A stretch of DNA of 55,643 nt from Bifidobacterium breve. Its GTDB lineage: Bacteria > Actinomycetota > Acidimicrobiia > Acidimicrobiales > Acidimicrobilacustridaceae. Position numbers and translations under genes: made by a program. Where the stretch lies: contig CAMAYJ010000008.1 in the NCBI GenBank assembly GCA_945862505.1, positions 1 through 55,643 of the forward strand, given 5' to 3'. Each line of letters starts with the position of its first letter. Position 1 is the first letter of the stretch. Shown in pieces: positions 1 to 6,917 of the stretch. Below the pieces are notes generated by a model. That model was given only the letters and a program-made list of their open reading frames with translations. It was not told where the DNA came from and did no database searches.

Positions 1-296
1 CGACCGTCACTCATGTCATCGATTTGTGCGACCGCAACAGCGAGCTGTCCCGGCAAACGGAATGTTGCCGAAGCGACGAGTGTGCCAAGACGAATCGTGC
101 TGGTTTCGCGCGCGATTGCACCGAGCGTGACCCAAGAATCGGTAGGGCCGGGCATCGGATCGCCAGCGCCCATGCGCAAGTAATGATCGGAGCGGAAGAA
201 GCCGTCGAACCCGAGTTGTTCGGCAAGTTGCGCAACCGCGAGTTGTTCACGATACGAAGCGCCCTGCTGGGGTTCAACAAAGATGCGAAGTTCCAT
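1..296 (-). CDS. Luciferase-like (LLM) flavin/F420-dependent oxidoreductase, N-terminal part
   Basis: The gene starts at an ATG at 296 and runs out of the window; about 98 residues are visible. The start MELRIFVEPQ, then QLAEQLGFDGFFRSDHY and SWVTLGAIARETSTIRLGTLV, is the typical first beta-alpha units of the bacterial luciferase-like TIM barrel, which uses F420 or FMN for hydride transfer. It lies 9 nt after the ccdA stop, so it is probably the third gene of a tlpA-ccdA-LLM operon. The F420 preference is inferred from the actinobacterial context; the substrate cannot be told. Confidence 0.85.
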   Translation of the reverse strand, partial: MELRIFVEPQQGASYREQLAVAQLAEQLGFDGFFRSDHYLRMGAGDPMPGPTDSWVTLGAIARETSTIRLGTLVASATFRLPGQLAVAVAQIDDMSDG

Positions 297-305
297 ACCC
301 CGAGG

Positions 306-1166
306 CTACTTGTCGTCGGCCCGGGCTTTGCTGAGCAACGCGATGAACACAACTAGCGCAATCACGAGGCCGAGGATGAGTCCGATACGAGTCGGGCCAA
401 CGTCGTTGATCCATTGCGTGATGTGGCCGTTGATGTTGAACATCCAGCCGGCGATTCCGCCGCCTGACGTGTTGCCGTTCAGAACGCGTAGTTCGTACCA
501 TCCGTAATAGGCGACATACAGACCAGCAAGAACGAGCAATACGCCAGAGATGCGATTGATATACGGCAGCACACCGCGCATTTTCTTCACGATGCCTTGG
601 CGAGCAAGCGCGATGGCAAGCGTGAGCACGATCAACACGAGTCCCATGCCGAGCGCATAGGCAATAAATGCACCGAGACCAACAAAGAAGTTCTGCTGAT
701 CAATAACCGTTGAGATCGCAGCGATGAACAACGACAACGTGCAACTCAGTGAAACGAGGGCATAAGAAATACCGAATACGAAAACGGATCCGAGTTCGCG
801 ACCTTCGGGGCCTTTCGAAATCTTCGGCAAACTCACGGTGATTTCGCGACCCATCAGCAAACGAATACCAAGGATCACCAGGACAACGCCCAACACGATG
901 GTGAGCCACGGCAACTTGTCGTTGATGGAAGAAAGAATTGGATCAAGAACGAGTCCGAGTACACCGAACACCACAACAAAGCCAGCCGTCATTGCCGCGC
1001 CCACGGCGAGTGCACGAAGAACGGTTGCGTCGGCTCGACTGTCTGTGTCTCTCGCGTTCTCGAGTCCTAAGAAATACGACAGATACGCCGGCAACATGGC
1101 GAAGCCGCACGGGTTAAACGTGGCAACCATGCCAACACCAAACGCGTAAACGATCGCCGAGTTCAT
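306..1166 (-). CDS. ccdA: Cytochrome c biogenesis protein CcdA (DsbD transmembrane domain)
   Basis: This 286-residue polytopic membrane protein has about six hydrophobic segments. The conserved redox cysteines are visible: Cys20 in FNPCGFAMLPAYLS and Cys142 in SLSCTLSLF. Proteins of this family move reducing power from cytoplasmic thioredoxin across the membrane to extracytoplasmic thioredoxin-like proteins used for heme attachment or disulfide repair. It starts one base after the stop of the TlpA-like gene, which is its likely electron acceptor, so the two are translationally close and probably work as a pair. The length is usual for the short CcdA form. Confidence 0.93.
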   Translation of the reverse strand: MNSAIVYAFGVGMVATFNPCGFAMLPAYLSYFLGLENARDTDSRADATVLRALAVGAAMTAGFVVVFGVLGLVLDPILSSINDKLPWLTIVLGVVLVILGIRLLMGREITVSLPKISKGPEGRELGSVFVFGISYALVSLSCTLSLFIAAISTVIDQQNFFVGLGAFIAYALGMGLVLIVLTLAIALARQGIVKKMRGVLPYINRISGVLLVLAGLYVAYYGWYELRVLNGNTSGGGIAGWMFNINGHITQWINDVGPTRIGLILGLVIALVVFIALLSKARADDK

Positions 1167-1167
1167 G

Positions 1168-1782
1168 TCAGTTACCGGTTGCGGTCTTCACGAGTTCGGT
1201 GAACTGAGCTTGGGTGAGTGCACCCGAATGCGTGGCCAGAATAGTTCCGTTTGACGCCACGAGGACGGTGTAGGGGAGTCCGATTCCACCAAGCGAGCGC
1301 AGAATCGACCCATTGACGTCGCGTCCAAGCGGATAGGTGACGCCGGTTCGATCGGCCATCGCTTGTCCGAGTTCGGGGGGTTCCAGATAAGCAAGACCAA
1401 GAATGTCGATGTCGTTGCGGTTGGCCTGCCATACCTTTTCCAGTGCAGGCATTTCTGTCACACAAGGAACACAGGTTGACGACCACACATTGATGAGAAG
1501 TGGTTTGCCGTTCGGTGCGAGTTCTTTGGTCGAGCCGTCGAAGGCGACGTAGGTGAGTTTCGGCAATCTGGTGCCGGTCACGTCGTTCGTGATGACGAGC
1601 TCAGGCGGTTGCGTGGCGTTCGGATCGAGCTTGGTGACATCTGACGATGTCGTTGACGAACCACCCGAGAACGACAGAATCAGGGCAATTGCGAAACCCA
1701 CGACAATCAGCCCCGCCACAGTGAGCGGGAGATAACGGCGCAGGGCCGATCGGGGTTGGGGAGGAAGCGGTGCGGGTTCCAT
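1168..1782 (-). CDS. Membrane-anchored TlpA/ResA-like thioredoxin
   Basis: With the ATG at 1782 the protein has 204 residues: a short basic N-terminus, one membrane segment (about residues 18-38), a linker, then a thioredoxin fold with the motif CVPC (Cys104 and Cys107) preceded by PLLINVWSST and a later cis-Pro region (GIGLPYTVLV). It is expected to face the cell exterior and receive electrons from CcdA, encoded immediately downstream. An in-frame GTG at 1926 would add 48 residues of Pro/Arg-rich sequence; I prefer 1782 because the anchor then sits near the N-terminus, but neither start has a strong ribosome site. Confidence 0.88.
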   Translation of the reverse strand: MEPAPLPPQPRSALRRYLPLTVAGLIVVGFAIALILSFSGGSSTTSSDVTKLDPNATQPPELVITNDVTGTRLPKLTYVAFDGSTKELAPNGKPLLINVWSSTCVPCVTEMPALEKVWQANRNDIDILGLAYLEPPELGQAMADRTGVTYPLGRDVNGSILRSLGGIGLPYTVLVASNGTILATHSGALTQAQFTELVKTATGN

Positions 1783-1947
1783 ATGAGATCCGACTGCGAG
1801 AGGCAGTGCCGACCGTACTTGGAGCCCCGCACCACTCCCAATCACCTCTCGACCGGAGGCCGGTTCGGTGACAGGTCCGACTGTCCGAGGCTGCAGGTGG
1901 GATCGGCTCGGGGGCGGCGATCCCACCCGGCTGCGGGCAGGTGGTTG

Positions 1948-2292
1948 CTAGGCGGAGCGCAACCAGGACTGAAGATGCACCGGCACAGGGATGTCGGGCA
2001 GCTCATCCTCGACTCGAGCGAGCTTCGGCGGGCGGCCGCGGCGACGCTTGGTGGCGAGGATCTTTCCGTTGATGAACATTTGTCCACCCCACACGCCCCA
2101 TGGCTCGTGGCGCTCAATCGCCCCTTCGAGACACTCGACGATCACCGGACAGGTCGAACAGATCGACTTGGCGATGGCGATGTCCTGGAGCTCTTCAGAG
2201 AAATAGACGCCGGTCAACGTTGCATTGAGGTCGTTGCATGCGGCGTCGGCCCTGACGGCCGGTGAGATGTCGTCGAGCGTCTCGGCGAGCAT
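1948..2292 (-). CDS. whiB7: WhiB7-like iron-sulfur transcription regulator with AT-hook
   Basis: The 114-residue protein has the four WhiB cluster ligands (Cys19, Cys45, Cys48, Cys54 in CSTCPVIVEC) and the EPWGVWGG turn at 63-70. A basic AT-hook-like stretch, RRRGRPPK (83-90), follows, as in WhiB7/WblC, the actinobacterial regulator of intrinsic antibiotic resistance that binds sigma factor region 4 through a 4Fe-4S cluster and AT-rich DNA through its hook. The extra C-terminal tail of about 24 residues is unusual. The start ATG has a ribosome site (AAAGGA) and a leader of over 200 nt with attenuator elements. The WhiB7 assignment rests on motifs, not on a tree. Confidence 0.82.
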   Translation of the reverse strand: MLAETLDDISPAVRADAACNDLNATLTGVYFSEELQDIAIAKSICSTCPVIVECLEGAIERHEPWGVWGGQMFINGKILATKRRRGRPPKLARVEDELPDIPVPVHLQSWLRSA

Positions 2293-2401
2293 CGGTTCAT
2301 TCCTTTCGTGGGTGCACCGTGGTGCATTGGGCTGGGGAGTTGAGGGACAGGCGTAGGTGGATGGAAGTTGGTGGATGGGGGGCGTGGCCGCACATGAAGA
2401 A

Positions 2402-2427
2402 AGGCCGCCGGGGGAACCCGGCGGCCT
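2402..2427 (-). terminator. Terminator hairpin in the whiB leader (attenuator)
   Basis: An 11-bp perfect stem (2402-2412 with 2417-2427) closes a 4-nt loop. Read on the minus strand it is followed by TTTCTTC, as in an intrinsic terminator. No complete minus-strand gene lies upstream of it, and it is 110 nt before the whiB start, so it most likely terminates the whiB transcript itself. Confidence 0.75.
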
Positions 2428-2474
2428 CAGTGCATGTACGCAGTGGTTACTGCGTCAGCTCAGAGATCGCCGGG
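2417..2474 (-). promoter_or_regulatory. Candidate antiterminator pairing in the whiB leader
   Basis: On the minus strand the segment CCCGGCG (2474-2468) can pair over 7 bp with CGCCGGG (2423-2417), which is the upstream arm of the terminator. The two structures exclude each other. Between them sits a 7-bp hairpin, ACGCAGT/ACTGCGT (2438-2444 with 2449-2455). The antiterminator segment lies inside the last codons of the upstream ORF, where a translating ribosome would mask it. Confidence 0.6.
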
Positions 2475-2522
2475 ACGGGTGCTTATGACCGAAGGTCGTA
2501 AAAGCGTTGGTGCCGGTGGCAT
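2460..2522 (-). CDS. Short upstream ORF in the whiB leader (candidate leader peptide)
   Basis: An ATG at 2522 opens a 20-codon frame (MPPAPTLLRPSV...) ending with TGA at 2460-2462, 33 nt before the terminator stem. No clear ribosome site precedes it. Its last codons overlap the antiterminator segment at 2468-2474, so its translation would decide which structure forms. It could be chance; the position relative to the hairpins is the argument. A second, three-codon frame (ATG CAC TGA, 2435-2427) abuts the terminator stem. Confidence 0.4.
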   Translation of the reverse strand: MPPAPTLLRPSVISTRPGDL

Positions 2523-2707
2523 ACCAAGTGGCGGAAATGGTCACGTTGGCTCGCGGTGCCACAGGCGCGACGGAGGCCGGAATGGCCGAATTGCGCGGTG
2601 TGGAGGCGGTCGTGAACATGAACTCCACCGAACCATGCCTGTGGTGGCCCCGTCAACTGAATTATTGGAAATCGGCCTGTTCCCGTTCCTGTCAAGGGAT
2701 CGGGGGC

Positions 2708-2713
2708 TAGCGT
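2708..2713 (+). promoter_or_regulatory. -10 element TAGCGT, leaderless type
   Basis: The hexamer ends 8 nt before the thioesterase ATG at 2722. No ribosome-binding site lies between, so transcription would start at or next to the start codon. Confidence 0.55.
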
Positions 2714-2721
2714 CGCGGGTC

Positions 2722-3567
2722 ATGGGAAACGCGGATTCGGCGGCGGGACAGGGCTCAACCCGGCGATCTGAGCGCGAAAACGGGGCCAGCCGAGTACTGC
2801 CTCTACCGACTTCGGGCCGGATTTTTCGTCGCGAACGAAGAGTGCGGTTGGGCGATGTCGATGCCACTGGCCGTCTTCGCCTCGATGCGGTGGCCCGCTA
2901 TCTCCAAGACGTTGCCACCGACGATTCCGATGACGTCGGCAGCCTCGAGGCCCGGGCCTGGGTAGTTCGGCGCACATTGATCGAACAGCGCAAAGCGATG
3001 CGAAATAGCGAAGACGTTTCGCTGGCCACGTTCTGTTCGGGAATGGGCAGCCGCTGGGCCGAACGTCGTGTGTCGATGACGGGTGAGCACGGTGGTTCGG
3101 TGGAAGCGGTGACCTTGTGGGTGCATCTCGACCCCGTGTCCGGTCGTCCGAAGACGTTGCCCGCCGGGTTTGTCGCCACCTACACCGAACCTTCAGGCGG
3201 TCGCGAAGTCACTGCGCGCCAAGTGCATGATCCCGTGGTTCCTGGCGACGACGGGGTGCACACGATGCCTTGGTGGCCGCGAGTCACCGATCTTGATGTT
3301 CTTAATCACGTCAACAATGCAGTGTCATGGGAAGTTGTGGAACAAACGCTCGAGCGTGTTCGAGCTCGTGAGCTCATCGACCTCGACACGGGCGGTTCAT
3401 TACGCGCGGAAGTGGAATTTCGCGATGCAATTGATTACGACGTGGTTATTGGCGCGATGCCATTGACGATCGCGTATCGAGTGGCGAACGAGGTTCTCGA
3501 ACTCGCGTTGTGGTCAACCGATGCTGAAACCGTGCACATGACCGCACAGGTGACGTCACTGCGCTGA
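2722..3567 (+). CDS. Acyl-ACP thioesterase-like protein (FatA/double hotdog)
   Basis: From ATG 2722 the protein has 281 residues. It shows two hotdog halves: the first begins at RIFRRERRVRLGDVDATGRL and the second has WWPRVTDLDVLNHVNNAVSW, the signature of acyl-ACP/acyl-CoA thioesterases that release fatty acids from the acyl carrier protein in the cytoplasm. The frame is open back to 2434, but the extra 96 residues are low-complexity and unlike the family, and a -10 element sits just before 2722. An in-frame start a little further in is possible. It is monocistronic and convergent with mrp. Confidence 0.82.
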   Translation: MGNADSAAGQGSTRRSERENGASRVLPLPTSGRIFRRERRVRLGDVDATGRLRLDAVARYLQDVATDDSDDVGSLEARAWVVRRTLIEQRKAMRNSEDVSLATFCSGMGSRWAERRVSMTGEHGGSVEAVTLWVHLDPVSGRPKTLPAGFVATYTEPSGGREVTARQVHDPVVPGDDGVHTMPWWPRVTDLDVLNHVNNAVSWEVVEQTLERVRARELIDLDTGGSLRAEVEFRDAIDYDVVIGAMPLTIAYRVANEVLELALWSTDAETVHMTAQVTSLR

Positions 3568-3582
3568 TTGCTGGTTAGCAAA

Positions 3583-4755
3583 TCAATTAGTTGTATCGAG
3601 CGCGGCAAGGGCTGCGTCGAGCATTCGCGCTGAACAACCGCTCATCGAAATCGGCGGAGCTAGTTCAGTCACAAGTAGTTCAGTGATTGCCCGAAGGGCC
3701 GATGACGCTTCGCCTTCGCTGAGCACGATGGGTGCACCGGAATCGCCGCCTAGAGAAACGGCGGGTTCAAGAGGAATGCAACCAAGGAGCGGAAGGCCCT
3801 CGTCGGCAGCCAGCCTAACGCCTCCCCCTTCACCGAATACGGCGTGCGTGTGGCCGTGCTCACAGGTGAATGCGCTCATATTTTCGATAACGCCGAGAAC
3901 ATGAAGATGGCTTTTGCGGGCCATGGTGACGGCACGAGTTGCAACCCGTTGTGCGCCGACCGCAGGAGTGGTGACAACGATCATCTCCGCTTGCGGAAGC
4001 ATGCGGGCCAACCCCATTTGCACGTCGCCAGTGCCGGGCGGAAGGTCGACGACGATGTAGTCGAGATCGCTGGCCCACGAAACGTCTTCGAGGAAGTGCT
4101 GCACGGCACGATTCAAAATGAGTCCGCGCCACATGAGCGCGTCGGTTTCATCGTCAACAAGTAATCCCATGGACACGACATCAAGACGACCGGTACCGAT
4201 GGGAATCGACTTCGGGATGATCGTGCGTTCTTCGTTGGGTCCCGTTGTTGCTTCGAGGCGACCTTCAATGCCGAGCATGCGCGGAATTGAGAAACCCCAA
4301 ATGTCGGCATCAATGACGCCAACGGCGAAACCCCGGTCGGCGAGTGCGGCGGCAATGTTCGCGGTCACCGACGACTTGCCGACGCCACCTTTGCCCGAAG
4401 CGATGGCCAGCACGCGGGCACCGGGCGGCACTCGGTTGGGACCGGCAGAAGATTGCGCGTGCTTGCGGGCGACGTTCATGGCCGCCGCCTTCTGATCGGC
4501 ATCCATCTCGGCCCAGTCAATGGAGGCCGAGGTAATGCCCGGGAGAGCTTCGATGCGGGTCAGAATCTCGCGCTTGAGTTGCGCTTTCAGAGGGCAGCCG
4601 GCCGCAGTGAGAGCCACAACAACCACCGCTGCGCCGGCCTCGGACACCGTTGCTGACCGGGCCATGCCCAGTTCCACGATGTCAGCGCCCAACTCAGGAT
4701 CGATAACGCCACGAAGCGCTGTGAGGATCTCGTCGCTCGTGGGAAGGGTGGCCAT
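3583..4755 (-). CDS. mrp: Mrp/ApbC-type iron-sulfur carrier ATPase
   Basis: The 390-residue protein joins an N-terminal MIP18/DUF59 domain (about 5-80, with conserved AAGCPLK) to a ParA-like P-loop domain with the deviant Walker A GKGGVGKSS at 121-129 and YIVVDLPPGTGD. Such proteins bind and hand over Fe-S clusters. The C-terminal CxxC that holds the bridging cluster in many members is not intact: after ENMSAFTC the next ligand position is Gly (CEHGH). It is divergent from iscA, another Fe-S factor, with 106 nt between starts. Its start is preceded by a leaderless-type -10 element. Confidence 0.92.
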   Translation of the reverse strand: MATLPTSDEILTALRGVIDPELGADIVELGMARSATVSEAGAAVVVVALTAAGCPLKAQLKREILTRIEALPGITSASIDWAEMDADQKAAAMNVARKHAQSSAGPNRVPPGARVLAIASGKGGVGKSSVTANIAAALADRGFAVGVIDADIWGFSIPRMLGIEGRLEATTGPNEERTIIPKSIPIGTGRLDVVSMGLLVDDETDALMWRGLILNRAVQHFLEDVSWASDLDYIVVDLPPGTGDVQMGLARMLPQAEMIVVTTPAVGAQRVATRAVTMARKSHLHVLGVIENMSAFTCEHGHTHAVFGEGGGVRLAADEGLPLLGCIPLEPAVSLGGDSGAPIVLSEGEASSALRAITELLVTELAPPISMSGCSARMLDAALAALDTTN

Positions 4756-4761
4756 AGCAGA

Positions 4762-4767
4762 AATCTA
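4762..4767 (-). promoter_or_regulatory. -10 element TAGATT of mrp, leaderless type
   Basis: On the minus strand the hexamer is followed by 6 nt and then the ATG of mrp at 4755. Confidence 0.6.
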
Positions 4768-4861
4768 CCGGCGGAAACAGCGGTTGGCCCTCCTCATCGT
4801 GGGAACTTGCCACGGCTCCGCTAACCTTTCTGCAAACACCGCTTTATCACGGAGGTCCACA

Positions 4862-5182
4862 GTGATCACGCTCACCGAAACCGCTTCTACCAAGGTTGCG
4901 GAACTCATTGCTCAAGAAGGTCAGGAAGACCTCATGTTGCGCGTCGCTGTCCGTCCTGGTGGCTGCAGCGGCTTTAGTTACGAGATGTTCTTCGATTCCG
5001 AGAAGGACTCCGAAGATGTTGTGAACACCGAGTTCGGCGTTCCCGTTGTGGTCGATCCTTCAAGCGCTCAGCTGCTCACCGGCGCCACCCTTGATTACAA
5101 GGATGGCCTCCAGGGTGCAGGTTTCGCGATCGACAATCCCAACGCCCAGAAGACGTGTGGCTGCGGTAACTCGTTCAGCTGA
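4862..5182 (+). CDS. erpA: HesB/IscA/ErpA-type A-type Fe-S carrier
   Basis: The GTG at 4862 is 5 nt after GGAGG and gives 106 residues. The three cluster-binding cysteines of A-type carriers are present: Cys35 in RPGGCSGFSY and Cys99/Cys101 in KTCGCGNSFS at the C-terminus. The protein delivers Fe-S clusters to apo-enzymes in the cytoplasm. An upstream TAACCT could be its -10 element, which would give a short leader with a real ribosome site, unlike the divergent mrp. A strong hairpin follows the gene. Whether it matches IscA or ErpA more closely cannot be decided here. Confidence 0.9.
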   Translation: MITLTETASTKVAELIAQEGQEDLMLRVAVRPGGCSGFSYEMFFDSEKDSEDVVNTEFGVPVVVDPSSAQLLTGATLDYKDGLQGAGFAIDNPNAQKTCGCGNSFS

Positions 5183-5201
5183 TTCTGCTTTTACTTTCTG
5201 A

Positions 5202-5229
5202 ACGACGACCGCCTTCGGGCGGTCGTCGT
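5202..5229 (+). terminator. Hairpin terminator after the IscA-type gene
   Basis: A 12-bp perfect stem (5202-5213 with 5218-5229) carries a TTCG tetraloop, 20 nt after the stop codon. It lacks a good T tract. Confidence 0.6.
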
Positions 5230-5273
5230 CGCGTAACCCTTAGGTTTCCGATCAATGATTCGATCGCGATGTC

Positions 5274-6917
5274 ATGACTGATCCAACTTCAATCGAAATT
5301 CCGCAGATTACGTTCTTCGTTGATGGCGAAGAAGTGAGCGTTCCCGACAATGGCGTGTCGTTGTTGGCGGCATTGCGCGGTCGACTCGGAGTTCGTGCGC
5401 CCAAAGCGGGTTGTAATCCGCAGGGGCAATGCGGCTGTTGCACGGTTTTGGTCGACGGCGCTCCACGAGTTTCATGCGTAACACCAGTTCGTCGTATTGC
5501 TGGTCGTGTTATTACGACTGTTGATGGACTGGCGGAAGAAGATCGCGAACGTTGGTCCGACGCGTTGATGGCCACCGGCGGCAGCCAGTGCGGATTCTGC
5601 ACGCCGGGCATCGTTTGTCGCCTTGAAGGTTTGCGATCGAAAAACACAGCAGCTGATGATCTTGATGCAGTCGACCGGGCGTTGGCAGCGCATCTGTGTC
5701 GATGCACGGGGTGGCAAACAATCCGAGAAGCGTGGTCGATGGTGGTGAGCGGTTCCTCGGTTGTGGAACATGAACGCCGCGAGGATCGTAATTTCGAGGA
5801 TGCATCGCGCCGGGCAACGATCGAAGGCCGATCAGCGCAGCAGGTTTCCGCCGAAGTTGCGCTTGGGCGTGGAGGCTTCGCTGAAGACACGGCGCCGCTC
5901 GATGCGTTAGTCGCCGTTCCCAACGGAGCCGGCGGATGGGTCGTCGCCGGTTCGTTAACCGAAGCTCGTGCGTTGGCGGGCAAGGTGCAAGGGCGACACG
6001 GAACCACATCGCCAGAGCCGCCGCTTGAGCTTCCTGAAGGAGAGTGGGAACTCACGATGCGAACCGGTTGGGTGGAACCGGCCTATTTGGAAACCGATGC
6101 TTCGTGGTGCGAGCCCGGCGGCGAACCGTTCACATCGCTGGCCAACGGCGGAGCATTTGGCGGAAAGTTGACCACCGATGTCGGACAGGTTGCTCGTGAG
6201 CTTGCCGATGAACATCGCCAAGCGGTTCGTGTGGTGTTGTCACGAGAAGACGTTGTGCGCGACGGACCCAAGCGTCCACCGATTGCTGCGGGCGTCCGTA
6301 CCGATGGCTCAGGTGTAATTCGTGTCGCACGCACGGAAGGCATTGCCGAAGCGATTACGAACATTGCGCCGCAATTTATGGTTGAAGAGATCGACGTTTT
6401 TGGTCCCCCGACCTCGGTAGATATCCGTGGAGCCGGTGTTGCTGAAGCACAGATCCTGCTTGCTGCGCTTGCCGCCAAGAACGCAAGAGAATCAGGCGAC
6501 AACAACGCTCACTGCGCAACGGCGACGAGTGCTGAAGGAGCGGTCGCCACAGTTGCAATCGGTTTCGATGACATCGTGCGCGTTGATCTGCGATGTGGTC
6601 GAGTACTCGATTCCATTGTTCTGCGTTCGTACGCGATCGGTGCGGTGCACATGGCGCTGGGCTGGGTCACCAGCGAAGGACTATCGGTTGATGAAGATGG
6701 AACGATTAGTGATCTGACGATTCGTTCCTTCGGTGTACTTCGTTCTGCCGATATGCCCCATGTCGAGGTCACGCTGCACGAGGAAGATACGGAGCCGGTC
6801 AATGGATCCGATGCTGTCTTCGCGGCCACGGCGGCAGCGGTGTGGTCGGCTCAAGGTTGGCCAACCGACTGGCCGACTGGTCGCAGTGTTCTCAGCAATG
6901 CTCGTGTGACACAGTGA
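5274..6917 (+). CDS. Fused, shortened xanthine-dehydrogenase-like protein ([2Fe-2S] plus molybdopterin-domain remnant)
   Basis: The 547-residue protein begins with a complete small subunit of the xanthine dehydrogenase/CO dehydrogenase family: plant-type [2Fe-2S] domain with Cys47, Cys53, Cys56 and Cys68 and a second helical domain with Cys106, Cys109, Cys142 and Cys144 (QCGFCTPG, LCRCTGW). From about residue 200 it resembles pieces of the molybdenum large subunit (SLANGGAFGGK; the C-terminal SDLTIRSFGVLRSADMPHVEV) in some 350 residues instead of the usual 750 or more. Most of the hammerhead and cofactor-binding domain seems absent, so catalysis is doubtful. ATG 5274 follows a terminator. Confidence 0.75.
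   Translation: MTDPTSIEIPQITFFVDGEEVSVPDNGVSLLAALRGRLGVRAPKAGCNPQGQCGCCTVLVDGAPRVSCVTPVRRIAGRVITTVDGLAEEDRERWSDALMATGGSQCGFCTPGIVCRLEGLRSKNTAADDLDAVDRALAAHLCRCTGWQTIREAWSMVVSGSSVVEHERREDRNFEDASRRATIEGRSAQQVSAEVALGRGGFAEDTAPLDALVAVPNGAGGWVVAGSLTEARALAGKVQGRHGTTSPEPPLELPEGEWELTMRTGWVEPAYLETDASWCEPGGEPFTSLANGGAFGGKLTTDVGQVARELADEHRQAVRVVLSREDVVRDGPKRPPIAAGVRTDGSGVIRVARTEGIAEAITNIAPQFMVEEIDVFGPPTSVDIRGAGVAEAQILLAALAAKNARESGDNNAHCATATSAEGAVATVAIGFDDIVRVDLRCGRVLDSIVLRSYAIGAVHMALGWVTSEGLSVDEDGTISDLTIRSFGVLRSADMPHVEVTLHEEDTEPVNGSDAVFAATAAAVWSAQGWPTDWPTGRSVLSNARVTQ

Follow-up and report, generated by a model that had tools for sequence, protein, structure and literature searches.

A probable ribosome-mediated attenuator of the WhiB7/WblC kind in the leader of an Acidimicrobiia whiB7 gene

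The whiB7 gene and its leader

The window, a stretch of 55,643 nucleotides from a genome of 2.3 Mb in 115 contigs, carries a WhiB gene on its minus strand, preceded by an upstream open reading frame (uORF), a terminator hairpin and an alternative hairpin that shares sequence with both (Table 1). In a domain search, PF02467 matched the product of the gene at E 8.5e-14. The top solved relative of the protein was WhiB7 (7kif, E 8.3e-17), in an alignment that spans EPWGVWGG and RGRP, and an NCBIfam search with the same protein gave no match. An earlier note, made from the nucleotide sequence, had called the gene WhiB7-like; judged by its WhiB domain, GVWGG turn and AT-hook, it is a WhiB7 orthologue.

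Table 1 Features of the whiB7 locus in the window, in the order of transcription.
Feature	Position	Strand	Details
Promoter with WhiB7-like box, TAATT-CAG-TTGACG (-35) -N18- TTCGGT (-10, weak)	2627..2664	-	Predicted +1 at or next to AUG 2619
Conserved uORF (candidate sensor ORF), 54 codons, MFTTAS...WYATGTNAFTTFGHKHPSRRSLS	2455..2619	-	ATG 2619, stop TGA 2457-2455
Predicted antiterminator, 5' arm CCCGGCG	2468..2474	-	uORF codons 49-51; partner 2423-2417
Predicted antiterminator, single long 58-nt hairpin	2417..2474	-	Fold -33.1 kcal/mol; uORF stop near apex
Predicted intrinsic terminator hairpin, GAGGCCGCCGGG-TTCC-CCCGGCGGCCTT	2401..2428	-	U-rich tail to ~2396
whiB7 orthologue, 114 aa	1948..2292	-	WhiB domain, GVWGG turn, C-terminal RRRGRPPK AT-hook

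Genes for Fe-S handling flank whiB7 (Mrp/ApbC-like at 4755-3583 and ErpA-like at ~4829-5182, together the region 3583-5182), and thioredoxin-like and CcdA/DsbD-like genes lie downstream of it (306-1926). Such neighbours are fitting company for an Fe-S regulator.

The terminator described in the earlier note is present. Its stem (2428-2417/2412-2401) has 12 pairs when one G-U is counted, its tail reads TTTCTTC, and the hairpin folds at -26.4 kcal/mol. In folding, the leader end was more structured than chance (z = -4.6, 0/200 shuffles as good). From these features, an intrinsic terminator is predicted between the uORF and the gene. The leader has no match in Rfam at the gathering score; a search at E <= 5 returned two matches, both below threshold.

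The spacer between terminator and whiB7 (2293-2392, minus strand) contains 47% C and 16% G and is rut-like by composition. This could make it a second, Rho-dependent checkpoint, a reading that we consider distinctly unlikely. C is at least 1.5 times as frequent as G in 43 of 95 spacers, but the property is not general, since 52 of the 95 fall short of this ratio and the spacer of L050 is G-rich.

Reading frame and start of the upstream ORF

Across 12 same-genus genomes, the frame from ATG 2619 to TGA 2455 is constant in length, start and stop. Its stop falls 29 nt ahead of the terminator, and the antiterminator arm lies within its last codons. Over the last 30 codons, the 12 genomes gave a pN/pS of 0.16, with 7.8 and 1.3 for the remaining two frames. 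The first 24 codons are less constrained (pN/pS 0.61) and codons 25-46, upstream of the antiterminator arm, gave 0.144. Codons 47-54, which hold the arm, contained zero changes, synonymous ones included, which fits a stretch under both RNA-pairing and coding constraint. These data point to coding selection on the 54-codon frame, and to a translated uORF like that of a WhiB7/WblC attenuator. A different sensor had been proposed in the earlier note, the 20-codon ORF at 2522-2460 (MPPAPTLLRPSVISTRPGDL). This ORF exists, but we rejected it as the sensor because its frame evolves as non-coding, with a pN/pS of 6.4 versus 0.13 for the overlapping 54-codon frame over the same stretch in the 12 genomes. 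ORF conservation, a check suggested in that note, holds for the 54-codon frame (12/12 same-genus genomes). Of nine further family members, two kept the ATG of the shorter ORF and three lacked it, and in four the look-up motif was not found.

Among 93 distinct uORFs, 32 have KH within their last 20 residues (in the window, 2455-2500 on the minus strand), compared to 5.5% after shuffling. This conserved K-H near the C-terminus may point to a role of the nascent peptide, which could arrest or slow ribosomes through the K-H or FGHKHP stretch and so make the sensor partly an arrest peptide. Both the KH excess and the low pN/pS of codons 25-46 agree with this. However, KH is absent from 61 of the 93 uORFs, the last codons are under RNA constraint as well, and the relatives are not independent, and we regard an arrest peptide as rather doubtful.

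Upstream of the uORF, TTGAC occurs in 64 of 71 leaders, mostly with an AT-rich box 3 bases before it. In Streptomyces, the WblC site is GAAAWY, 3 nt upstream of the -35 element, according to the available text of PMC7157823. By eye, the box of the window (ATAATT-CAG-TTGACG) agrees with this Streptomyces motif at 4 of 6 positions, and several relatives, such as L031, L046 and L048, have GAAAAT-N3-TTGAC. In the window, the putative WhiB7 box is thus present only as an AT-rich box. The AT-rich box and TTGAC also resemble the WhiB7 motif of M. abscessus, as given in the part of PMC10727445 available to us. In the window's genome, whiB7 is the only site with the full pattern of box, -35 and -10. 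Box and -35 together gave 11 matches in the genome, compared to 9 for a reversed control, and no WhiB7 regulon was seen; reading the translations downstream of the 10 other matches revealed no evident resistance gene.

The distance between promoter and uORF is fixed in three genera, that of the window and two sisters: counted from the first T of the -35, the AUG follows at 36-37 nt in 21/21 loci; 17 of these are from the window's genus, 12 of them nearly identical. By eye, the AUG in this three-genus set follows a TTNNNT -10 by 6-7 nt, so that it coincides with the expected start site. GGAG, a possible Shine-Dalgarno sequence, was seen by eye before the AUG in 11 of the 21; the window is one of these, and its GGAG borders on the -10. 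Elsewhere in the class, the candidate AUGs, as uncertain starts, lie mostly ~60-125 nt after the -35; exceptions include L061 and L087 at 36-37 nt, several loci such as L031, L054, L070, L080, L082 and L084 with a candidate at 27-39 nt, and L039 at 202 nt. From these distances we give an even chance to a leaderless sensor uORF in the three genera, with the AUG as first transcribed nucleotide. If this is true, the switch would read the capacity for leaderless (70S) initiation besides elongation, and its response to initiation inhibitors would differ from that of the leadered mycobacterial whiB7 uORFs.

Antiterminator pairing and conservation among relatives

We searched for WhiB7 in three overlapping sets, of 61 genomes (the window's and relatives), 149 genomes of the class and 197 of the phylum. 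All 61 genomes of the first set matched some WhiB protein, 54 of them at E <= 4.1e-25; matches were found in 70/149 genomes of the class at E <= 1e-15 and in 34/197 of the phylum at E <= 1e-12. Comparison of the loci left 97 distinct leaders with a terminator, from the window's genus, family, order and class. Not included are other-class loci, leaders identical over the compared stretch, L022, which has only 71 nt of upstream sequence, and 11 loci set aside because we considered their automatically picked terminator wrong or missing (L045, L059, L060, L092, L095, L097, L116, L122, L128, L144 and L145). An ORF of at least 25 codons that stops 20-34 nt before the terminator is found in 94 of the 97 Acidimicrobiia leaders versus 294 of 2910 shuffles (10.1%), and is absent in 3.

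The earlier note had described CCCGGCG at 2474-2468 as exactly complementary to CGCCGGG at 2423-2417, and this was confirmed. In the window, pairing of this upstream arm with the terminator arm reached -25.0 kcal/mol, compared to a shuffle mean of -16.1 kcal/mol, and 0/100 shuffles were as good. The two segments form the base of the 58-nt hairpin. At its apex lies the 7-bp stem of the earlier note (2455-2449/2444-2438), which is present as described; we rejected the middle hairpin (2455-2438) as an independent element, it being the apical part of the 58-nt hairpin.

We also assessed, in 123 leaders, how the end of the uORF pairs with the terminator arm; this set keeps near-identical genus copies and other-class loci and additionally drops L053 and L093. 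At most 1/100 shuffles was as good in 65 of these, and at most 5/100 in 95; in some leaders, for example L023, L078, L109, L110 and L119, the pairing was not better than in shuffles. When partners were permuted among the 97 leaders, 0/2000 permutations attained the energy sum of the own partners, although only 7 leaders had their own partner as the best of all 97, and 45 had it in the top tenth. Arm words and partner words were associated (25/4/2/13, Fisher p 3.7e-6, for the 44 of 97 leaders in the table and uncorrected for kinship).

Covariation was measured in two alignments, A1 with 37 hand-chosen leaders (omitting L019, L021, L028-L031, L036, L037, L039 and L041) and A2 with all 47, themselves hand-picked from the 97, in which the counts were repeated with the same outcome. 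A 10-pair outer stem was formed in 89.6% of cells in A1 (shuffled 86.1%, slid 25-49%) and in 88.2% in A2 (shuffled 84.8%, slid 24-48%). Cells with both sides changed numbered 11 in A1 (0/500 shuffles) and 15 in A2 (0/500 shuffles), and the A2 covariation score was 0.157 versus 0.112 (0/500), uncorrected for kinship. Two further A2 measures were unremarkable, namely pairs changed on both sides (26/500 shuffles) and further pair types (137/500). The key pair in A1 is GC in 27 leaders, AU in 7, GU in 1 and other in 2, and in A2 (columns 19 and 90) GC in 32, AU in 11, GU in 1 and other in 3. A C-to-U change at this position of the terminator arm gives a U-G pair in the terminator (12 leaders), whose opposite arm has G in 47/47; in 11 of the 12, the antiterminator arm has the matching A. 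The terminator tolerates the arm change, yet the antiterminator pair shifts from G-C to A-U, which argues for selection on the antiterminator. Another stem position (A2 columns 22 and 87) is unpaired in 20 of 47 leaders, including the window. The alignment of the leader across relatives, as proposed in the earlier note, therefore showed a covarying antiterminator, and a terminator stem paired in 95.2% of cells (47 leaders, A2). Taken together, covariation, shuffles and swapped partners point to an antiterminator that uses the uORF end and the terminator arm.

To locate the leader by sequence and structure, we used a covariance model, R1, built from 37 leaders, many of them from the 61 genomes searched, and run with stricter filters. 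R1 matched 52 of the 61 genomes, and each best match lay directly upstream of whiB7 (coordinates compared by eye). In G042, it precedes the second of two tandem copies. Among the nine genomes without a match, seven reach at best E 8.8e-11 in the WhiB search (two of these are 78-80% complete), G013 has only 71 nt of contig upstream of the gene, and G053 has a divergent leader (L042, 23.7 bits). None of the seven genomes lacking a WhiB7 orthologue had an R1 match. R1 also gave opposite-strand echoes at the same places, and four weak matches of 25-27 bits elsewhere (G051:C13, G046:C39, G042 near 4.02 Mb and G029:C452). Of the loci set aside, the covariance model found the leader in L045, L059, L122 and L128 (31.7-61.4 bits) and weakly in L097 (20.6 bits); at E <= 1 it found nothing in L060, L092, L095, L116, L144 and L145. 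Five partial WhiB matches (L162-L166) have no clear leader, the best score being 15.0 bits (E 0.084) in L162, far upstream of the match; by eye, we took L162-L165 to be WhiB1-like.

L059 (G042) and L122 (G184) are tandem pairs of WhiB7-like genes in which the leader precedes the second copy, and G085 has three WhiB7-like genes. The same-genus genomes G012, G015 and G016 have neither a WhiB7 orthologue nor a leader match; G012 is 100% complete and the others 78-80%, which suggests that whiB7 and its leader were lost jointly, at least in G012. In 21 other-class loci, R1 reached at most 22.7 bits, indicating that the leader sequence has diverged between classes. Geometry is retained in 15 of these loci, whose stop lies 24-30 nt from the terminator; in 3 the distance is 17-18 nt, two have no uORF (L108 and L110), and in one the terminator was judged wrong (L097).

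These results bear on a rival arrangement, in which the uORF would encode a small protein and be followed by an ordinary terminator, and whiB7 would have its own promoter between 2400 and 2293. A strong terminator does stand between uORF and whiB7, and amino-acid selection acts on uORF codons 25-46. However, antiterminator covariation and the fixed stop-terminator spacing in 94/97 leaders call for a coupling of uORF and terminator, and the WhiB7-like box sits upstream of the uORF. A consensus promoter scan reported no promoter-like site on the minus strand over positions 1-6000, which is weak evidence because it also failed to report the conserved promoter at 2627-2664. We consider an independent whiB7 promoter highly improbable.

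Proposed mechanism and known attenuators

The leader of the window is very probably a ribosome-mediated transcription attenuator of the WhiB7/WblC kind. Coding selection on the uORF, the terminator, antiterminator covariation, conserved geometry and the identity of WhiB7 support this computationally, and the start site, footprint effects, inducers and autoactivation that we infer would act as follows. Transcription would start at position 2619 or an adjacent one, and the 54-codon uORF would be translated by a ribosome following RNA polymerase. Translating to the stop, the ribosome would cover ~2475-2446, including the antiterminator 5' arm; with this arm covered, the terminator would form before polymerase leaves the U-tract, and whiB7 would remain unread. 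A stall in about codons 1-43, caused by an antibiotic or amino-acid shortage, or a failure of ribosome loading would leave the arm free. The long antiterminator would then form first and polymerase would continue into whiB7, whose product would activate its own promoter via the AT-rich box. The same logic of termination after a finished uORF and readthrough upon stalling was put forward in the earlier note; geometry, covariation and masked folding agree with it, with a uORF other than the one named there.

In masked folding, growing transcripts were folded with an assumed ribosome footprint of 30 nt and 10 nt hidden by polymerase. When the arm was free, with no ribosome present or with one stalled at codon 5, 20, 35 or 43, the antiterminator was predicted up to 34 nt past the terminator start, and at 36 nt the terminator form became the minimum in the folding model. 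With a ribosome at codon 46, 50 or the stop, the full antiterminator never formed, and the terminator appeared from ~28-32 nt. The minimum-energy state of the finished leader is the terminator form. Since a free arm does not keep the terminator form from prevailing at 36 nt, antitermination needs kinetics, and the margin is narrow. The model predicts induction by a stall at any of about the first 43 codons, provided that the antiterminator forms faster than it rearranges.

The sensor could instead respond to one amino acid or charged tRNA rather than to translation stress in general, which seems quite improbable to us. Pro, Arg, Ala, Thr and Ser are frequent among the last 25 uORF residues, and the available parts of the respective papers report whiB7/wblC expression under amino-acid starvation (PMC11550727) and a response to alanine starvation that requires WhiB7 (PMC10727445). 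However, the uORF peptide of the window has no run of a single residue, near the antiterminator arm or elsewhere, the composition and sequence of the uORF differ between families, and the stall-permissive stretch in the masking model spans ~43 codons. We rejected an amino-acid-specific leader as the main reading on the first two of these grounds.

As a translation-stress attenuator, the leader adds the class Acidimicrobiia to the range of this kind of WhiB7 control, next to the loci from other classes of the phylum. This fits an old origin of the attenuator in the phylum and fits translation-stress sensing in small-genome freshwater bacteria. WhiB7 is a master regulator of antibiotic resistance, and these bacteria are not known as drug producers or pathogens. 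The analysis also yields a covarying RNA alignment for a leader without Rfam match and a candidate leaderless-uORF variant. We found no literature description of a whiB7 leader for Acidimicrobiia, which is weak evidence of absence, as subscription papers were thinly covered. The novelty in this lineage suggested by the earlier note is therefore narrow, the kind of attenuator being known.

Lee, Lee and Roe (2022) reportedly described the WhiB7/WblC uORF attenuator of Mycobacterium and Streptomyces. Control of whiB7/wblC by a uORF-dependent terminator and antiterminator is also described in the available text of PMC11550727, PMC9618640, PMC10727445 and PMC13393426, and Dinan 2014 (PMC4128351) is a further source on this system. 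Amino-acid leader attenuators, as far as the available text of the sources goes, are alike in uORF, terminator/antiterminator and footprint logic (ilvBNC of Corynebacterium, PMC10272879; ilvB1 of M. tuberculosis, PMC13236596). Their uORFs have codons of the regulated amino acids and biosynthetic genes downstream, whereas the window uORF has neither. Attenuators of the ABCF resistance genes vmlR, lmrC, are5sc and tiaA likewise relieve termination through a drug-stalled uORF ribosome, according to the part of PMC12421871 available; the are5sc and tiaA uORFs are described there as very short, with stalling at the start codon, in contrast to 54 codons before a transcription factor gene in the window. 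With the Mycobacterium and Streptomyces attenuators, the window leader shares the uORF, the intrinsic terminator, WhiB7 downstream, an antiterminator overlapping the uORF end and the terminator arm, and an AT-rich box 3 nt upstream of the -35. It differs in its class and in the sequences of uORF and arms. In M. bovis and M. marinum, the uORF lies ~10 nt downstream of a consensus Shine-Dalgarno sequence (PMC4128351, available text), whereas the predicted +1 falls on the AUG in the three genera named above, the window's and its two sisters, with no conserved Shine-Dalgarno sequence. In conclusion, the window leader is very probably the known WhiB7/WblC uORF attenuator, in another class.
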